NCBI GenBank assembly: GCA_001871075.1
Contig: MNUP01000047.1
Location: 1-49,032, forward strand
Direction: 5' to 3'
Length of the DNA stretch: 49,032 nucleotides
Origin: Candidatus Desantisbacteria bacterium CG1_02_49_89
GTDB taxonomy: Bacteria > Desantisbacteria > UBA1551
Part shown: one piece after another, positions 8,237 through 48,167 of the stretch
Layout: each line of letters starts with the position of its first letter
Position numbering within the stretch: position 1 is the first letter of the stretch
Position numbers and translations under genes: made by a program
The notes under the pieces: generated by a model
Told to the model about the DNA's origin: nothing
Seen by the model: only the letters and a program-made list of their open reading frames with translations
The model's database searches: none

Positions 8237-9346
8237 TTGATAAAGTCTAATATAAAGAAAGAAAAGTATTACATGGGGCTGGCAATAGAACTTGCAAAGA
8301 AAGCGCGAAATCCCAGCCCCAACCCGTACGTCGGGGCAGTGATCGTAAAAAACGGCAGGATAGCCGGCAGGGGATTCCACCTGAAAGCAGGAGATCCGCA
8401 CGCCGAGATCAACGCGATAAGAGATGCGGGCAAAAACGTAAAGGGTTCAACGCTTTACGTGAACCTTGAGCCCTGCGCTCACTGGGGCAGGACGCCCCCG
8501 TGCACTGACGCCATAGCAGAAGCAGGCATAAGGGAAGTTGTGATAGGAATAAAGGATCCCAATCCGCTCGTGAACGGTAAGGGCATAACCAGGTTAAAAA
8601 AAGCGGGCGTGAAGGTCAGTAGCGGGATCCTTGAACAGGAGTCAAGAAAGCTGAACGAAGTCTATACGCATTACATCATCCAAAAGATACCTTTCGTTCT
8701 TTTGAAAACAGCAATGAGCCTGGACGGCAAGATCGCGGCACGCACAGGCGAATCCAGATGGATCTCCGGCGAACAGTCGCGCAAATACGTAAAGCAGCTG
8801 CGCGCGAAGTTTGACGCGGTGTTAGTCGGAATAAATACGGTGCTGAGGGATGATCCGGAATTAACCACAGTTTACAAGTTTACAAGTTTACAAGTTTACA
8901 AGGAACCACTTAAAATAATAGTGGATAGCAGGCTGAAAATACCGCTCCGTGCGAAACTTCTGAAAAAGCCGGAAGAAGTAATTGTCGCGGCTACAAATAA
9001 AGCTCCTAAAAACAAAGCACGGCAGCTGGAAAGGCTGGGCGTCAGGGTTCTTGCAATAAAGGCAAAAAAAGACAGGATTGATATAAAGGCACTGATGAAG
9101 AAATTGGCAGAGATGGAAATTTCCTCCGTATTTATTGAGGGCGGCGGAGAAATTAACGCAAGCGCAATTGAGTCAGGTATCGTTGATAAAGTTCTATTTT
9201 TCATCGCCCCCAAGTTCATAGGCGGAAGAGACGCGAAAACCCCGGTTGAAGGCAGGGGCATTGCACGGATGGCGCAGGCAGCCCAGCTCCGCAATATAAC
9301 CGTCAGGCGTATCGGCCTGGATATTATAGTTGAGGGGTACCTTTAA
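8237..9346 (+). CDS. ribD: Bifunctional diaminohydroxyphosphoribosylaminopyrimidine deaminase / 5-amino-6-(5-phosphoribosylamino)uracil reductase
   Basis: NPSPNPYVGAVIV, HAEINAI, YVNLEPCAHWGRTPPCTDAI, LKTAMSLDGKIAARTGESRWIS; TTG start inferred. Confidence 0.93.
   Translation: MIKSNIKKEKYYMGLAIELAKKARNPSPNPYVGAVIVKNGRIAGRGFHLKAGDPHAEINAIRDAGKNVKGSTLYVNLEPCAHWGRTPPCTDAIAEAGIREVVIGIKDPNPLVNGKGITRLKKAGVKVSSGILEQESRKLNEVYTHYIIQKIPFVLLKTAMSLDGKIAARTGESRWISGEQSRKYVKQLRAKFDAVLVGINTVLRDDPELTTVYKFTSLQVYKEPLKIIVDSRLKIPLRAKLLKKPEEVIVAATNKAPKNKARQLERLGVRVLAIKAKKDRIDIKALMKKLAEMEISSVFIEGGGEINASAIESGIVDKVLFFIAPKFIGGRDAKTPVEGRGIARMAQAAQLRNITVRRIGLDIIVEGYL
8870..8902. repeat. Tandem word AGTTTACA inside ribD
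   Basis: CAGTTTACAAGTTTACAAGTTTACAAGTTTACAAGG; same word is intergenic at 18605..18645 and 46678..46715. Confidence 0.8.
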
Positions 9347-33193: not shown

Positions 33194-33329
33194 TATTTGT
33201 CCCTTCTGTAATACAATTATGAGTTATGAATTATGATTTATGAGTCAAAGGCATGGATTTTCATTTAAATTAATAATCTTGCTGTTGATTCATAACTTAT
33301 AACTCATAATTCATAATTGATTTACATAA
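33194..33329. repeat. Intergenic inverted word array (TCATAATTCATAACTCATAA family)
   Basis: AATTATGAGTTATGAATTATGATTTATGAGTCA ... GATTCATAACTTATAACTCATAATTCATAATT. Confidence 0.85.
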
Positions 33330-35898: not shown

Positions 35899-36702
35899 AT
35901 GCCATTAATCCAATCCATAATTCTGGGCCTGGTCCAGGGCCTGACCGAATTCCTTCCGGTCAGCTCAAGCGCGCACCTTGTGCTTGTGCCCAATTTTCTG
36001 GGATGGGAGCCCTCTCCTGTTTTGTTTGATATATTCCTGCACCTCGGCACCCTTGTTGCCGTGCTTGTTTACTTCCGCAAGGATATTTTGGGACTCTTCT
36101 CTTCCCGCTCTTCACTACTCACTGTCTTAATTGTGGCCTGCGTTCCGACCGCAATTATCGGTTTTTTATTTAAGGGCTTCTTTGAAAAACTTTTCGAGAA
36201 TCCGGCAGGCGTCTCTGTACTTCTTCTTGTCACCGGTTTTCTTTTATGGTTTTCTTCGCGACGCGCGACCCGCCCAGCAAAATTGGCGGGCAAGCTGTCC
36301 GACCCGCAAGGGCGACGCGCGACGATTTCGTACGCCGACGCCCTCTGGATCGGCATTGCGCAGGGCGCCGCGATAGCGCCGGGCATTTCGCGTTCAGGCG
36401 CCACGATATCAACCGGTCTTTTGAGGGGTCTTTCAGGTGAAGAAGCCGCAAGGTTCTCTTTCCTGCTTTCGATCCCCGCGATCCTGGGCGCGTTAGTGTT
36501 TAAATTAAAAGATCTATCGTCCACAGTTCACGGTCCACAGTCCACGGCGTACATGATTGGAGGGGCAGTCGCGGGATTAGCAGGATATGGGGCGCTGAAA
36601 ATAGTTTTTAAAGCCCTCAAGGCGGGAAGGTTCAAATATTTCGCGCTGTATTGCTGGGCACTGGGAACCATTGGTATTTTATCCGTTTTGGTCCGTGGCT
36701 GA
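35899..36702 (+). CDS. uppP: Undecaprenyl-diphosphatase
   Basis: MPLIQSIILGLVQGLTEFLPVSSSAHLVLVPNFLGW, AQGAAIAPGISRSGATISTGLLRGLSGEEAARFSFLLSIPAI. Confidence 0.95.
   Translation: MPLIQSIILGLVQGLTEFLPVSSSAHLVLVPNFLGWEPSPVLFDIFLHLGTLVAVLVYFRKDILGLFSSRSSLLTVLIVACVPTAIIGFLFKGFFEKLFENPAGVSVLLLVTGFLLWFSSRRATRPAKLAGKLSDPQGRRATISYADALWIGIAQGAAIAPGISRSGATISTGLLRGLSGEEAARFSFLLSIPAILGALVFKLKDLSSTVHGPQSTAYMIGGAVAGLAGYGALKIVFKALKAGRFKYFALYCWALGTIGILSVLVRG
36258..36323. repeat. Word/hairpin insertion inside uppP flanked by 12-bp direct repeats
   Basis: GCGACGCGCGAC at 36258..36269 and 36312..36323; hairpin CCCGCCCAGCAAAATTGGCGGG and CGACCCGCAAGGGCGACGC between/overlapping. Confidence 0.85.
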
Positions 36703-41076: not shown

Positions 41077-43583
41077 AGTCAAATTTCAAATTGCAAAATG
41101 TAAATTGCAAATTGCAGGATCCAGAGACTGAAACTGCAAAGCTGCGGGAAATAATACAGAAGATAAAGAAGCCTTTCGGGCTGGAGGAGAAGAATGGCTG
41201 CACGAACTTCTCCGTCATTGGAGGCTTCAGCAGTTACGTGATGAACTGGGCGCAGAAAGCATTAGATGCAGTATCAGGTATCAAGTATCAAGTGTCAAGT
41301 AAAGGATATATAATAAGCAACCTTAATGAGTTGAAAAAGATATTTGAAGGATATATTTCGGCGAAAATAAATTACAGGGTTGTTCTTTTGAAACAGGGCC
41401 TGCAGGCCATCGGAAAGATCGAAAAGTTCCTTGAAGATCCCGGGGCGTTCAGGGAGGAAATTGCAGGAAAGAAAGCGCGTACCGCACAGGACCTAAGCTC
41501 GCCGGCGCAGTACCTGAAAGGGGTAGGCCCGAAGCGGGCAAGGATACTGGGTAAAGTGGGCGTTGGCACGATCCGCGACCTGCTGATGTATTTTCCGTTC
41601 AGGTACGAGGACCGCAGCCGCCTGACCCTGATCGCGCAGCTGCAGGACGGCGACGAGAAGACGATACAGGCGATCGTAAAAAATCAGAAGCTCATAAGGA
41701 CAAGAAGGGGCATGCTTTTAAAAGTGATCTTGACGGACGGCACCGGAGAGGTCGGCATGGCCTGCTTCAACCAGTATTACCTTAAGGACATACTGATCCC
41801 CGGGACCTCACTTGTCCTGACAGGGAAATTCAGCCGCAGGGAGGCTTCAAGGTCCAGAAGGCTGGAAGTGTCAAGTTTTACCTATGAAGTCCTGCGAAGC
41901 GCGCAGGAAGGTGAGACGCCTGAAGACGAGATGATACACACAAACCGCATCGTCCCCATATACCCCGTCACGGAAAGGCTGAACATGAGGTTTCTGCGCG
42001 CGCTCATAAAACACACGCTTGACGAATATCTTCCCGCCCTTTCAGACAGCATCCCGGCCGGCATAAGGGAAAGGCAGGGGCTTGCGGATTACAGGACAGC
42101 CGTTGAGAACATACATTTCCCGAAGGATCTTGCGATATGCGAGGAAGCGAGGAGGCGGCTGGTCTTTGACGAGTTCTTCTACCTGCAGGCAGCGCTTGCG
42201 GTCGAGAAAAATAAGGTCAAGGCAGCGCCGGGCATAACATTTTCAATACCGCAGGATTTCCTGCCCGGTTTTGAAAAATTGCTTCCGTTCAAACTGACAG
42301 GATCGCAGAGGAAGGTCATAGGGGAAATTTTTGCCGACATGTCCAGCCCCAGGCCTATGAACAGGCTGCTCCAGGGAGACGTAGGTTCCGGAAAAACCGT
42401 AGTCGCGGTCTGCGCCGCATACGCGGCAATGAAGAACGGATTCCAGGTTGTTTTTATGGCCCCGACAGAAATACTTGCTGAACAGCATTTTCTGAACCTG
42501 CGGGAGTTTCTGTCGGGGCTGGGAATAAAGAGCGTGCTCCTCGTGAGCGGTATCAGCAGGAAGGAAAGAGAATCGGTGCTTGAAGATATTGCCGGCGGTG
42601 AGGCGGATATAGCCATAGGAACCCACGCCCTCCTGGAACAGGACGTGCGGTTCGCGAAACTCGGCCTGGCGATAATAGACGAGCAGCACAGGTTCGGGGT
42701 CCTGCAAAGGGCGGGCCTGAGGCAGAAAGGCGCAAATCCGGATGTGCTTGTGATGACCGCAACGCCCATACCCCGCACTCTCGCCCTCACGCTTTACGGC
42801 GACCTTGATGTTTCCGTTATCAGGGAAATGCCCCCCGGCAGGAAAGAGATCAAGACCAGGCTGTTTTCCGGCAACGCTGACAGGGAATCGGTGCAGGAAA
42901 TTGTGAGGGGCGAGATCAGGTCAGGCAGGCAGGTGTATATCGTTTATCCGCTCATCGAGGAATCAGAAAAGATCGACCTGAAAGCCGCCGTAAAGGAGTT
43001 TGAACGCCTTAAAAAAGTATATCCCGAGTTCAGGCTGGGCCTGATGCACGGAAGGCTTCCGCCGGATGAAAAAGATGACATAATGAAAAATTTTAAGAAC
43101 GGGTCGATAAAAATACTGGTGTCAACAACCGTAATAGAGGTCGGCATAGACGTGGCGAACGCTTCCGTGATGCTGATCGAGCACCCGGAGCGGTTCGGGC
43201 TCGCGCAGCTGCACCAGCTCAGGGGAAGGATAGGGCGCGGGGGGTACGAATCCACCTGCATACTGCTCGCAAGCGCAAGGCTCACAGAGGAAGCAAGGGC
43301 GAGGATAAACGCGCTTGTGAGGACAACCGACGGGTTTGAGATAGCGGAGGCGGACCTGGGCATAAGAGGGCCGGGGGAATTCACCGGCACAAGGCAGAGC
43401 GGGATGCTGGATTTCAGGTTGGCTGACCTGGTGAAAGATTTCCGGCTCCTTGAAACAGCGCGCGAGGAGGCTTTCGCTCTTGCAGGCGCGGACCCCGATC
43501 TCAGTTCGGAAGGCAACCGCCCGCTCAAAGAGATGATAAGGACTATTTACAAGGGCAGGGAGAAGCTCCTTAAAGTAGCATAG
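41064..43583 (+). CDS. recG: ATP-dependent DNA helicase RecG
   Basis: YLKGVGPKRARILGK, LLQGDVGSGKTVVAVCAAYAA, IIDEQHRFGVLQR, MTATPIPRTLALTLYGDLDVSVI, QLHQLRGRIGRGG. Confidence 0.96.
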   Translation: MENLKSNFKLQNVNCKLQDPETETAKLREIIQKIKKPFGLEEKNGCTNFSVIGGFSSYVMNWAQKALDAVSGIKYQVSSKGYIISNLNELKKIFEGYISAKINYRVVLLKQGLQAIGKIEKFLEDPGAFREEIAGKKARTAQDLSSPAQYLKGVGPKRARILGKVGVGTIRDLLMYFPFRYEDRSRLTLIAQLQDGDEKTIQAIVKNQKLIRTRRGMLLKVILTDGTGEVGMACFNQYYLKDILIPGTSLVLTGKFSRREASRSRRLEVSSFTYEVLRSAQEGETPEDEMIHTNRIVPIYPVTERLNMRFLRALIKHTLDEYLPALSDSIPAGIRERQGLADYRTAVENIHFPKDLAICEEARRRLVFDEFFYLQAALAVEKNKVKAAPGITFSIPQDFLPGFEKLLPFKLTGSQRKVIGEIFADMSSPRPMNRLLQGDVGSGKTVVAVCAAYAAMKNGFQVVFMAPTEILAEQHFLNLREFLSGLGIKSVLLVSGISRKERESVLEDIAGGEADIAIGTHALLEQDVRFAKLGLAIIDEQHRFGVLQRAGLRQKGANPDVLVMTATPIPRTLALTLYGDLDVSVIREMPPGRKEIKTRLFSGNADRESVQEIVRGEIRSGRQVYIVYPLIEESEKIDLKAAVKEFERLKKVYPEFRLGLMHGRLPPDEKDDIMKNFKNGSIKILVSTTVIEVGIDVANASVMLIEHPERFGLAQLHQLRGRIGRGGYESTCILLASARLTEEARARINALVRTTDGFEIAEADLGIRGPGEFTGTRQSGMLDFRLADLVKDFRLLETAREEAFALAGADPDLSSEGNRPLKEMIRTIYKGREKLLKVA
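41271..41300. repeat. GTGTCAAGTATCAAG-type word inside recG
   Basis: GTATCAGGTATCAAGTATCAAGTGTCAAGT; compare intergenic 37296..37326. Confidence 0.85.
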
Positions 43584-43840: not shown

Positions 43841-45943
43841 ATGAAGATAGCGGAAGTGGTCCTGCCCATACCTGTTGACAAATCTTTTTCCTACTCAGTC
43901 CCGGAAGCTTTTGCCGCGCAGTTACGTGCGGGAATGAGGGTGAAGGTACCGTTCGGCAACAGGAAACTGACCGGGTTTGTCATTAAAACGTCCGACGTCC
44001 GACGTCCGACGTCCGACGGGAAAATATTAAAAGATATTATAAATACGGTAGACGAAGAACCCGTGATAAACGCGGAAATAATGAAGCTGTGCGAGTGGAT
44101 CTCCTCCTATTATTTCTGCCCGCTGGGCAAGGTCCTGCATGCGGCAGTACCGGTCAGAGACAGTCGTGCGTCGCCCTTGCGGGTCGTGCGTCGTGCGCAG
44201 GAAACTTCCGAAAACAGTGGCCTGTGGCCAGTGGCCAGTTGCCAGCAAGATGATCAAAACTTAATTTCCGGCAGTCAACTCACCACTGACCACTCACCAC
44301 TCACCACTAATTTACCGGTGCTGACAGGAGAGCAGGAAAGCGCGGTCGGGCAGGTAAAGGCCTGCATCGAAAGCGGGAAGCACGGGGTTTTCCTGTTCGA
44401 AGGCCCGCCGCGTTCAGGCAAGACAGAATCATGCATGCGCGCGATAGCGCTTGCAAGGAAAAAAAATCGAAGAGTACTTGTGCTTGTTCCCGAGATCTCC
44501 GCCCTGGCCGCGCTTGCCGGCAGGTTAAAAACAAGGTTTGCGGGAGAAAGGATCGCGGTCCTGCACAGCGACCTCAAGCAGAAAGACTATGATTCTGTGT
44601 GGTGCGGCATAAAGAGGGGAGAAGCGGATATCGTGGCAGGGACCCGTTCCGCGGTTTTCTGCCCGGTTGAAAACATCGGCCTTATAGTGGTTGAAAGTGA
44701 GGAAGACGGAAGTTTTAAGGAACAGATGGAGCCAAGGTACCATGCCAGGGACGCTGCGGTGGAAAGAGGGAGGATCTGCGGCGCGGCCGTGATACTTAAG
44801 TCCGGCTCTCCATCGATGGAATCGCATTATTCCGCGGTAAAAGGAAGGTATATTCTGTGCGGTTTTTCCGTTCCGCAGGGCGGCGGCGAAGTGCCTGAGG
44901 TTGAAATAATCGACAAGAATCAAGCCCGGCAGGTCAGGCAGAAAAGCTGGATCTTTTCCTCCAGGCTCATAGAAGCAATAAGGTTAAAGCTTGAAACAGG
45001 CGAAAAAATATTTCTTTTCCTGAACAGGCGCGGGTTTGCCTCGCTGCTTTTGTGCGATGAATGCGGGAAGGGAATGCACTGCCCCGGGTGCGGGGTGCCC
45101 CTGACTTTCCACAAGCCGGACCTGCTTCTCTGCCACCGCTGCAACTACAGCGTAAAGGCGCCGGATACCTGCCCGGACTGCGGGAAAAAGAGCATGCGGC
45201 GTTTCGGCATGGGCACTCAGCAGGCTTTCGACGAGCTAAAAAGGCTTTTTCCGCAAACCCCTTCCGGCAGGCTTGATGCGGATGCGGCAAAGGACGTGCT
45301 GTCAGCCGGGCAGATACTGGCGGATTTCAGGGCCGGAAAAACCAGGATCCTTGTTGGAACACAGATGGCCGCCGGGGAAGAGCTTGGCGGGTTCGGGCTG
45401 CTGGGCGTGGTGCTTGCGGATTTTTCAATGAATATTCCCGACTTCAGGAGCCCGGAGCGCACATACCAGATCATATCAAGGCTGATGGGCGGCCTGGCCG
45501 CAAAGGAAGGCGGAAGCAGGCCTTTGGTAATAATCCAGACATACAATCCAAATCACTACGTTTTCAGCGCGCTGAAAGAGGGATATGATTCCTTCTTCAG
45601 GGATGAATCGAGGATAAGGCGCCGCCTGAGATATCCTCCTTTTTCAAGCCTTATCAACTTAATAATATCCGCAGGTACCGAGCAGAAGAGCGCGCAGGCA
45701 GCGGAAAAGATCAGGGAGGCGCTTGCGGCAAGAAAGGGCGCCGCAGGGCGTTCGGGCAGGTTTGACATGCTTGGGCCCGCGCCGGCGCCGGTCCCGGTGA
45801 TTAGGGGAAAATACAGGTACGAGATAATGCTCAAGGGTAAAAAAACCGCTCTGGATAAACTGGTTGACACCGTGGCGGAACAGCGGTTCGGGTCAAAAAC
45901 AGAAAAGGTTGCAGTGGACGTGGACCCGATAAGGATGCTCTAA
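43841..45943 (+). CDS. priA: Primosomal protein N' (replication restart helicase)
   Basis: VVLPIPVDKSFSYSVP, EGPPRSGKTE, Zn motif CDECGKGMHCPGCGVPLTFHKPDLLLCHRCNYSVKAPDTCPDCG, GMGTQQAFDELKRLFP. Confidence 0.95.
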   Translation: MKIAEVVLPIPVDKSFSYSVPEAFAAQLRAGMRVKVPFGNRKLTGFVIKTSDVRRPTSDGKILKDIINTVDEEPVINAEIMKLCEWISSYYFCPLGKVLHAAVPVRDSRASPLRVVRRAQETSENSGLWPVASCQQDDQNLISGSQLTTDHSPLTTNLPVLTGEQESAVGQVKACIESGKHGVFLFEGPPRSGKTESCMRAIALARKKNRRVLVLVPEISALAALAGRLKTRFAGERIAVLHSDLKQKDYDSVWCGIKRGEADIVAGTRSAVFCPVENIGLIVVESEEDGSFKEQMEPRYHARDAAVERGRICGAAVILKSGSPSMESHYSAVKGRYILCGFSVPQGGGEVPEVEIIDKNQARQVRQKSWIFSSRLIEAIRLKLETGEKIFLFLNRRGFASLLLCDECGKGMHCPGCGVPLTFHKPDLLLCHRCNYSVKAPDTCPDCGKKSMRRFGMGTQQAFDELKRLFPQTPSGRLDADAAKDVLSAGQILADFRAGKTRILVGTQMAAGEELGGFGLLGVVLADFSMNIPDFRSPERTYQIISRLMGGLAAKEGGSRPLVIIQTYNPNHYVFSALKEGYDSFFRDESRIRRRLRYPPFSSLINLIISAGTEQKSAQAAEKIREALAARKGAAGRSGRFDMLGPAPAPVPVIRGKYRYEIMLKGKKTALDKLVDTVAEQRFGSKTEKVAVDVDPIRML
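43988..44017. repeat. (ACGTCCG) word tandem inside priA
   Basis: ACGTCCGACGTCCGACGTCCGACGTCCGAC. Confidence 0.9.
44160..44320. repeat. Composite multi-word insertion inside priA
   Basis: GTCGTGCGTCGCCCTTGCGGGTCGTGCGTCGTGCG; CAGTGGCCTGTGGCCAGTGGCCAGTTGCCAGC; CAACTCACCACTGACCACTCACCACTCACCACTAA. Confidence 0.88.
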
Positions 45944-47438: not shown

Positions 47439-48167
47439 ATGTTAAAAATTGATGTTCTGACGCTCTTTCCGAAAATGTTCGAAGGTCCCCTTACTGAAAG
47501 CATGCTCAGAAGAGCCCGGGAGAAGAAGCTTTTAGGGATAAAGATAATTGACATCAGGAACTTCACTTCCGACAAGCACAGGACCGCGGACGACTCTGCC
47601 TATGGCGGCGGCGGGATGGTATTAAAACCGGAGCCGATCTTTAAGGCGGTCGAGTTCCTTAAAAAGCAGTCGTGCGTCATACGTCGTAAGTCGTACGTTA
47701 AAGAAAAAAAACGCTCGACGCTCGACGCTCGACGTCCGACGGTTGTGCTGATGGCTCCCGACGGGAAGACGTTCGACCAGCAGGCCGCAAAAAGGCTCGC
47801 AAAAAAGAAACACCTGATTTTCATATGCGGGCATTACGAGGGGGTGGACGAAAGGATAAGGAAGATCGCCGACGAGGAAATTTCGATAGGCGATTACGTC
47901 CTTACGGGCGGCGAGATCCCCGCGATGGCCGTTATAGATGCGGTGGCAAGAATGGTGGAAGGCGTGGTGGGGAATAAAGAGGCAGCGGTCAGGGATTCAT
48001 TTTACAGCGGCATCCTGGATTGGCCCCATTACACCCGTCCCGGTAAATTCAGGAATATGAAGGTTCCGGATGTTCTTCTTTCCGGTAACCACAGGAAGAT
48101 AGAGGAGTGGCGCGAAAAAAAAGCGTTTGAACGCACGAAGAAACGACGCCCCGACCTCCTTAAATAA
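47439..48167 (+). CDS. trmD: tRNA (guanine-N1-)-methyltransferase
   Basis: KIDVLTLFPKMFEGPLTESMLRRA, DDSAYGGGGMVLKPEPIF, FICGHYEGVDERI, DEEISIGDYVLTGGEIPAMAVIDAVARMV. Confidence 0.96.
   Translation: MLKIDVLTLFPKMFEGPLTESMLRRAREKKLLGIKIIDIRNFTSDKHRTADDSAYGGGGMVLKPEPIFKAVEFLKKQSCVIRRKSYVKEKKRSTLDARRPTVVLMAPDGKTFDQQAAKRLAKKKHLIFICGHYEGVDERIRKIADEEISIGDYVLTGGEIPAMAVIDAVARMVEGVVGNKEAAVRDSFYSGILDWPHYTRPGKFRNMKVPDVLLSGNHRKIEEWREKKAFERTKKRRPDLLK
47667..47742. repeat. Multi-word insertion inside trmD
   Basis: CAGTCGTGCGTCATACGTCGTAAGTCGTACGTTAAAGAAAAAAAACGCTCGACGCTCGACGCTCGACGTCCGACGG. Confidence 0.88.

Follow-up and report, generated by a model that had tools for sequence, protein, structure and literature searches.

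Introduction

Rickettsia palindromic elements (RPE) are stem-loop elements of 100–150 bp that lie both between genes and in frame within conserved protein genes, where they are apparently tolerated (PMC2229807, PMC10969869). A second type of dispersed repeat is represented by the TAACTGA heptanucleotides of Beggiatoaceae and the STRR heptanucleotides of cyanobacteria. These are 7-nt direct repeats that are mostly intergenic, with a few located inside ORFs where they are stop-free (PMC4679880). Among PriA proteins, that of Deinococcus radiodurans is a demonstrated pseudohelicase (PMC4504706). Here we describe a priA gene of Candidatus Desantisbacteria bacterium CG1_02_49_89 (the host), found in a 49,032-nt stretch of contig MNUP01000047.1 that we call the window. 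The repeats in its interdomain linker are two dispersed elements, E1 and E2, and they are not special to priA, being one case of a genome-wide phenomenon. We consider it likely that the repeats, dispersed through the genome, settled in loops that tolerate them and whose frame stays open, and that they persist there neutrally in a manner like that of RPE.

Results

The host PriA is probably a pseudohelicase

The priA product matches the PriA structures 4nl4/6dgd in the Protein Data Bank (phmmer, E 2e-97). Pfam places the 3' DNA-binding domain (3'BD, PriA_3primeBD) at residues 5–104 and PriA_C at residues 600–696, with PF17764 and PF18074 scoring above the cut-off and PF18319 just below it. Between the 3'BD and the helicase core lies a linker (residues ~106–160), and the core is followed by the Zn-binding CRR and the C-terminal domain. 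The features of the family are thus present, namely the 3' DNA-binding domain, the SF2 helicase fold, the C-terminal domain and a zinc region in which all eight cysteines are aligned and invariant across 11 PriAs. When Klebsiella pneumoniae PriA (4nl4) was compared with the query using phmmer, residues 1–112 and 161–697 aligned. Query residues 113–160 did not, nor did residues 125–213 of the 4nl4 chain, which we take, from established knowledge of PriA structure, to be the winged-helix segment. A winged-helix domain is absent between the 3'BD and the helicase, with no Pfam winged-helix match. The linker region is the most variable part of all the PriAs aligned and differs in length among them. 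Because several other PriAs (L021, L024 and L028) are likewise short at the winged-helix place, loss of this segment does not exclude membership in the PriA family.

Within the helicase core, the GKT of Walker A is retained, DEEH has become ESEE, and the RAGR of motif VI is gone. The PriA of the one relative compared here (see below) has DGEE in place of DEEH and also lacks RAGR. DEEH and RAGR-like motifs are present in most other PriAs checked, with a sizeable share of the 29 loci not scorable as a single ORF and a few more falling outside the strict patterns. With DEEH, RAGR and the winged-helix segment all missing, the host protein is probably a pseudohelicase that is PriA by descent, has a natural delta-WH layout and would have lost helicase activity. 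Calling it an essential-type replication-restart helicase, as a preliminary description of this DNA did, is therefore misleading. A structure predicted from both PriA sequences was too poor (pLDDT 38) for placing the linker, and a scan of viral contigs returned no further PriA relatives.

Table 1. Positions of priA, its linker and its repeats in the window.
Feature	Position	Strand	Basis or remark
priA, 700 aa	43841–45943	+	ORF and translation
Site 1, 31-nt array (ACGTCCG)4+ACG, 3'BD loop, residues 50–60	43988–44018	+	TRF
Linker, residues 106–157, 3'BD-helicase joint	44156–44311	+	In place of K. pneumoniae PriA ~125–213
Element E1, GTCGTGC heptads around core TCGCCCTTGCGGGTCG	44163–44200	+	38/38 identity to C38:18694–18731
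Element E2, ~98-nt hairpin	44213–44310	+	TRF; fold

The linker is built from two dispersed elements

The preliminary description had reported a composite peptide between the N-terminal domain of PriA and the helicase, and the peptide is present there, correct to the last letter (Table 1), encoded by in-frame GTCGTGC, CAGTGGC and ACTCACC heptads. It had also recognized that the gene stays open with composite repeat DNA as its interdomain linker, which is borne out by a frame that is intact across four arrays. An additional in-frame array that it did not mention occupies site 1 in the 3'BD loop. Its division of the linker into three unrelated word families does not hold, as CAGTGGC and ACTCACC are the arms of one element and recur together at a second locus.

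Searching the host genome with priA returned, besides the identical copy of E1, a series of copies at lower identity. Aligned copies have in common the non-repetitive core TCGCCCTTGCGGGTCG, while the flanking heptads vary between copies and tend to match across both sides of one core. Genome-wide, the core has 13 exact and six one-mismatch sites, compared with 0 for a reversed control pattern, and was not found in the genome of the relative. Copies of E1 lie inside priA, rnfC, carA, valS, a thiL-like gene and uppP. In rnfC, carA and valS the element is read on the opposite strand, giving THDP(Q/L)GRRTT, while in priA it reads ASPLRVVRR. The window itself contains a core within uppP/bacA (36300–36315), in the orientation opposite to that of the priA copy.

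The arms of E2 are the two 31-nt TRF arrays of the linker, CAGTGGC at 44215–44245 and ACTCACC at 44278–44308, which are partly complementary and enclose a 32-nt loop. Folded as RNA, the element reaches -31.1 kcal/mol (z -3.5), while as DNA the z is only -1.7. The unit, with both arms and a similar partial loop, recurs at C103:13058–13141 (E 2e-14), in frame in an alpha-L-rhamnosidase gene between the N-terminal and concanavalin-like domains. As expected of RPE-like elements, the repeats are thus dispersed and in frame in unrelated genes, E2 in those for PriA and alpha-rhamnosidase and E1 in priA and others. Their words are far above chance: CCACTCACCACT was counted nine times where 0.01 would be expected, and CGTCGTGCGTCGTGCG 11 times for an expectation of 0.0001.

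Short heptamer arrays of one length abound in the host genome

Array statistics were drawn from 817 kb of host sequence and 927 kb from the relative. Of the host regions, the first 20 had been picked for holding matches; 40 contigs were added later and are about as dense in arrays (252 across about 428 kb). The host sample contains 522 short arrays, 230 of them with period 7, and in the first 389 kb there are 342 TRF rows, compared with eight in a Markov shuffle. Exact period-7 runs are far above the Markov model. The excess extends over periods 7–10 and is absent from periods 4 and 5, and runs of period 1 to 3 are short. The host thus fits the definition of long simple sequence repeats, an excess of tandem units in the 5–11 nt class with heptamers commonest.

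Period-7 arrays show a sharp length peak at 31 nt, the length of 71 of the 230, and a second detector gave the same peak with a broader tail. The words of these 71 arrays make up 28 classes, and GGG or CCC occurs in only three arrays. The 31-nt arrays have the same triplet at the start and the end, commonly ACT/AGT, AAT/ATT or ACG/CGT. An inverted partner lies within 100 nt of 66 of 388 arrays (~17%), compared with seven (2%) in the control. Terminal inverted repeats, target-site duplications and a cognate transposase together mark a MITE, and the inverted partners may correspond to the first of these. Given that only about 17% of arrays have a partner, we rejected the idea that every array is a hairpin arm. 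One inverted pair of ~31-nt arrays (AATTATG/ATTCATA) at 33215–33318 of the window forms a ~100-nt intergenic hairpin that belongs to a many-copy family. Rfam returned two tRNAs for the window and nothing else.

MutS (MutS_V) and MutL (DNA_mis_repair) had no match in either draft genome, while controls were positive. Loss of mismatch repair is insufficient as the sole cause of the arrays: the relative, equally without hits, has few of them, and short periods are not enriched. The same absence of hits would suit de novo slippage, in which the arrays arose in place from priA sequence, were fixed by absent mismatch repair and did not move. Such an origin would also agree with the dominance of unit lengths 7–10, as in the heptanucleotide slippage hypothesis (PMC4679880), and with words that match within one copy on both sides of the E1 core, as local homogenisation would give. 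However, unrelated loci share the non-repetitive E1 core or the E2 unit of two arms and a similar loop, the shortest periods are those that lack enrichment or long runs, and the lengths peak at 31 nt with no geometric fall-off. We therefore regard slippage in place as distinctly unlikely. Y1 transposases gave 10 hits and are present in both genomes. Spread of the REP/RAYT kind was considered on this account, but no link from the transposases to the elements was established.

Arrays lie in frame inside many housekeeping genes

About one third of the genome was sampled for arrays internal to genes, defined as 30 aa or more from both ends, and 71 such arrays were found in 50 ORFs. The gene calls are greedy ORFs, and "internal" is Pfam-confirmed solely for the named genes, which include those for LeuRS, ValRS, HypF, phosphomannomutase, RibD, a ROK protein and both the small and large chains of carbamoyl-phosphate synthase (CarA and CarB), among others. 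Successive copies of a 7-nt unit fall into each of the three frames in turn, so that a long array in an open frame needs a word without a stop. The word is stop-free on the gene strand in any phase in 57 of 58 scored internal arrays. The arrays often lie between domains. In the rhamnosidase, the array spans residues 513–541 and the domains end at 504 and start at 539; in CarA, residues 169–205 lie between domain borders at 130 and 209; in HypF, residues 202–214 lie between borders at 197 and 227. Because the same repeats are in frame in many housekeeping genes, the priA repeats are best seen as tolerated "junk" coding sequence and not as an invention specific to PriA.

Several further arrays were noted. 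In the window, a 34-nt AGTTTACA array lies in frame in ribD (8869–8902), and the RibD of the relative is without these 12 residues. Further in-frame heptad arrays lie close to the start of recG, at its N-terminus (41270–41301), and inside trmD (47711–47741). At L033 12269–12297 and L100 2484–2513, heptad arrays appear to encode a signal-peptide-like, hydrophobic N-terminal stretch.

The host genome is a 150-contig draft, a circumstance that would favor an assembly or binning artefact as the source of the arrays. We give this a negligible chance: arrays of ~31 nt are shorter than an ordinary read, four of them leave the priA frame uninterrupted, and dozens of genes carry arrays of the same sort.

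Different repeats occupy the same sites in a relative

The comparison rests on one relative of the same order, Ca. Desantisbacteria CG1_02_38_46, which was the single match in a scan of named genomes. Its PriA is 49% identical to that of the host, and both PriA sites hold dispersed repeats of the relative's own. The linker is encoded by a palindrome with further copies in that genome, and the codons of site 1 consist of ACG-CACG heptads into which another repeat, likewise present elsewhere, is nested. Neither an empty PriA site nor an intermediate was seen in this one relative. The linker residues of the relative are different and fewer, and the segment is therefore not ancestral PriA; an ortholog alignment had been proposed in the preliminary description as the check on ancestry, and the ancestral outcome, an ortholog free of the words yet carrying the same residues, was not seen. 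That the linker descends in worn form from the ancestral winged helix and resembles repeats by chance is highly improbable. Its position is that of the winged helix, but no winged-helix match was obtained, the residues are not common with the relative, and the TRF and dispersal statistics speak against it. The dispersed identical copies refute it in the main.

For host arrays whose relative orthologs are at least 40% identical, 15 of 25 coincide with gaps of at least five columns (null 11%, p 8e-9), as in LeuRS and RibD, and identity at the 25 array sites is 27% vs 58% elsewhere. The aligned sites of the relative match elsewhere in its own genome in 11 of 25 cases, compared with 12% of control windows. 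The relative has seven TRF heptad rows in 927 kb, three of which are at host array sites, namely PriA site 1, phosphomannomutase and an activase-like radical SAM protein. At PriA site 1 the host word is ACG-TCCG and that of the relative ACG-CACG, with the triplet ACG in common and different tetramers. In the phosphomannomutase orthologs (L041 6655–6681 and L145 2699–2730) the heptads are unrelated (CGT-ACGA vs ATT-GCAA/TCAG), and the arrays occupy one common 31-nt stretch that needs no indel, in a 31-nt alignment read from the printed sequences. As far as these alignments go, the shared sites may be places where repeats land in both lineages, or they may hold old arrays whose words have turned over.

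PriA site 1 and phosphomannomutase, with different words at the same place in two lineages, are the reason for a further reading. An undescribed process may write fixed-length tandem patches of 31 nt (four heptads and the first three bases once more) at preferred places in bacterial genes, the word being exchangeable with place and length unchanged. We hold this to be unlikely.

The recurrence of repeats at the same two PriA sites in both lineages might instead suggest domestication, with selection having given the segment, or E2 as an mRNA hairpin, a function in PriA, for example in tether length or as a translational pause between domains. An RNA fold of E2 that beats shuffles and the frequent position of in-gene arrays at domain borders would be in line with this. 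Against such a role, the two lineages show no conservation of the peptide, the repeat of the relative is a different one, and the same elements occur in unrelated enzymes, read in either orientation. We judge it very unlikely.

Discussion

The reading that we favor is thus the landing of dispersed repeats in tolerant loops. A PriA without a winged helix and with degraded motifs would have a joint tolerant of both length and sequence. Copies of E1 and E2 would have entered this 3'BD-helicase joint, and a third array the 3'BD loop. Only words that are stop-free in any phase would persist in frame, and the priA words are of this kind, except for a single variant unit whose phase makes it harmless. 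If translated, the repeats would serve only as a passive linker, neutral or slightly costly, and would turn over in place. Copying, mediated by recombination or by a transposase, probably spread them, and slippage would then have acted inside the arrays in a background without mismatch repair. The absence of MutS and MutL would let slipped, diverged copies persist. The surprising part, which this explanation leaves unexplained, is the 31-nt quantum together with the word-swapped sites in two lineages; priA is one instance among many.

The in-frame colonisation of housekeeping genes in this uncultured candidate phylum is on a scale comparable to or beyond that in Rickettsia. With shared sites that carry swapped words, in genomes without MutS/MutL hits, the origin of heptanucleotide repeats becomes testable. 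The host is also a test of the G-quadruplex origin proposed for four-unit heptamer arrays, as it has a similar preference without G-tracts.

How do the protein and its repeats compare with known systems? As in D. radiodurans PriA, catalytic motifs are lost and the DNA-binding domain is kept (PMC4504706). The two differ in that D. radiodurans PriA has its Walker A lysine replaced, while the host PriA keeps GKT and has lost DEEH, RAGR and the winged-helix segment. The host repeats can be likened to Rickettsia palindromic elements built from heptamer simple repeats (PMC4679880, PMC4692102). E2, a hairpin of ~98 nt that is read in frame in both PriA and an alpha-rhamnosidase, resembles RPE and the protein-coding palindromes of Wolbachia, a likeness by analogy only. 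Unlike in RPE, the arms in the host are heptad arrays, E1 is found in both orientations, and there is no single conserved peptide. In Beggiatoaceae, one word dominates and the in-ORF cases are mainly at protein ends, whereas the host has dozens of words, many internal to housekeeping enzymes. Finally, the GGGNATC repeats of Xanthomonas and Nostoc have a four-unit preference tied to G-quadruplexes, while the 31-nt (4x7+3) preference in the host spans 28 word classes.
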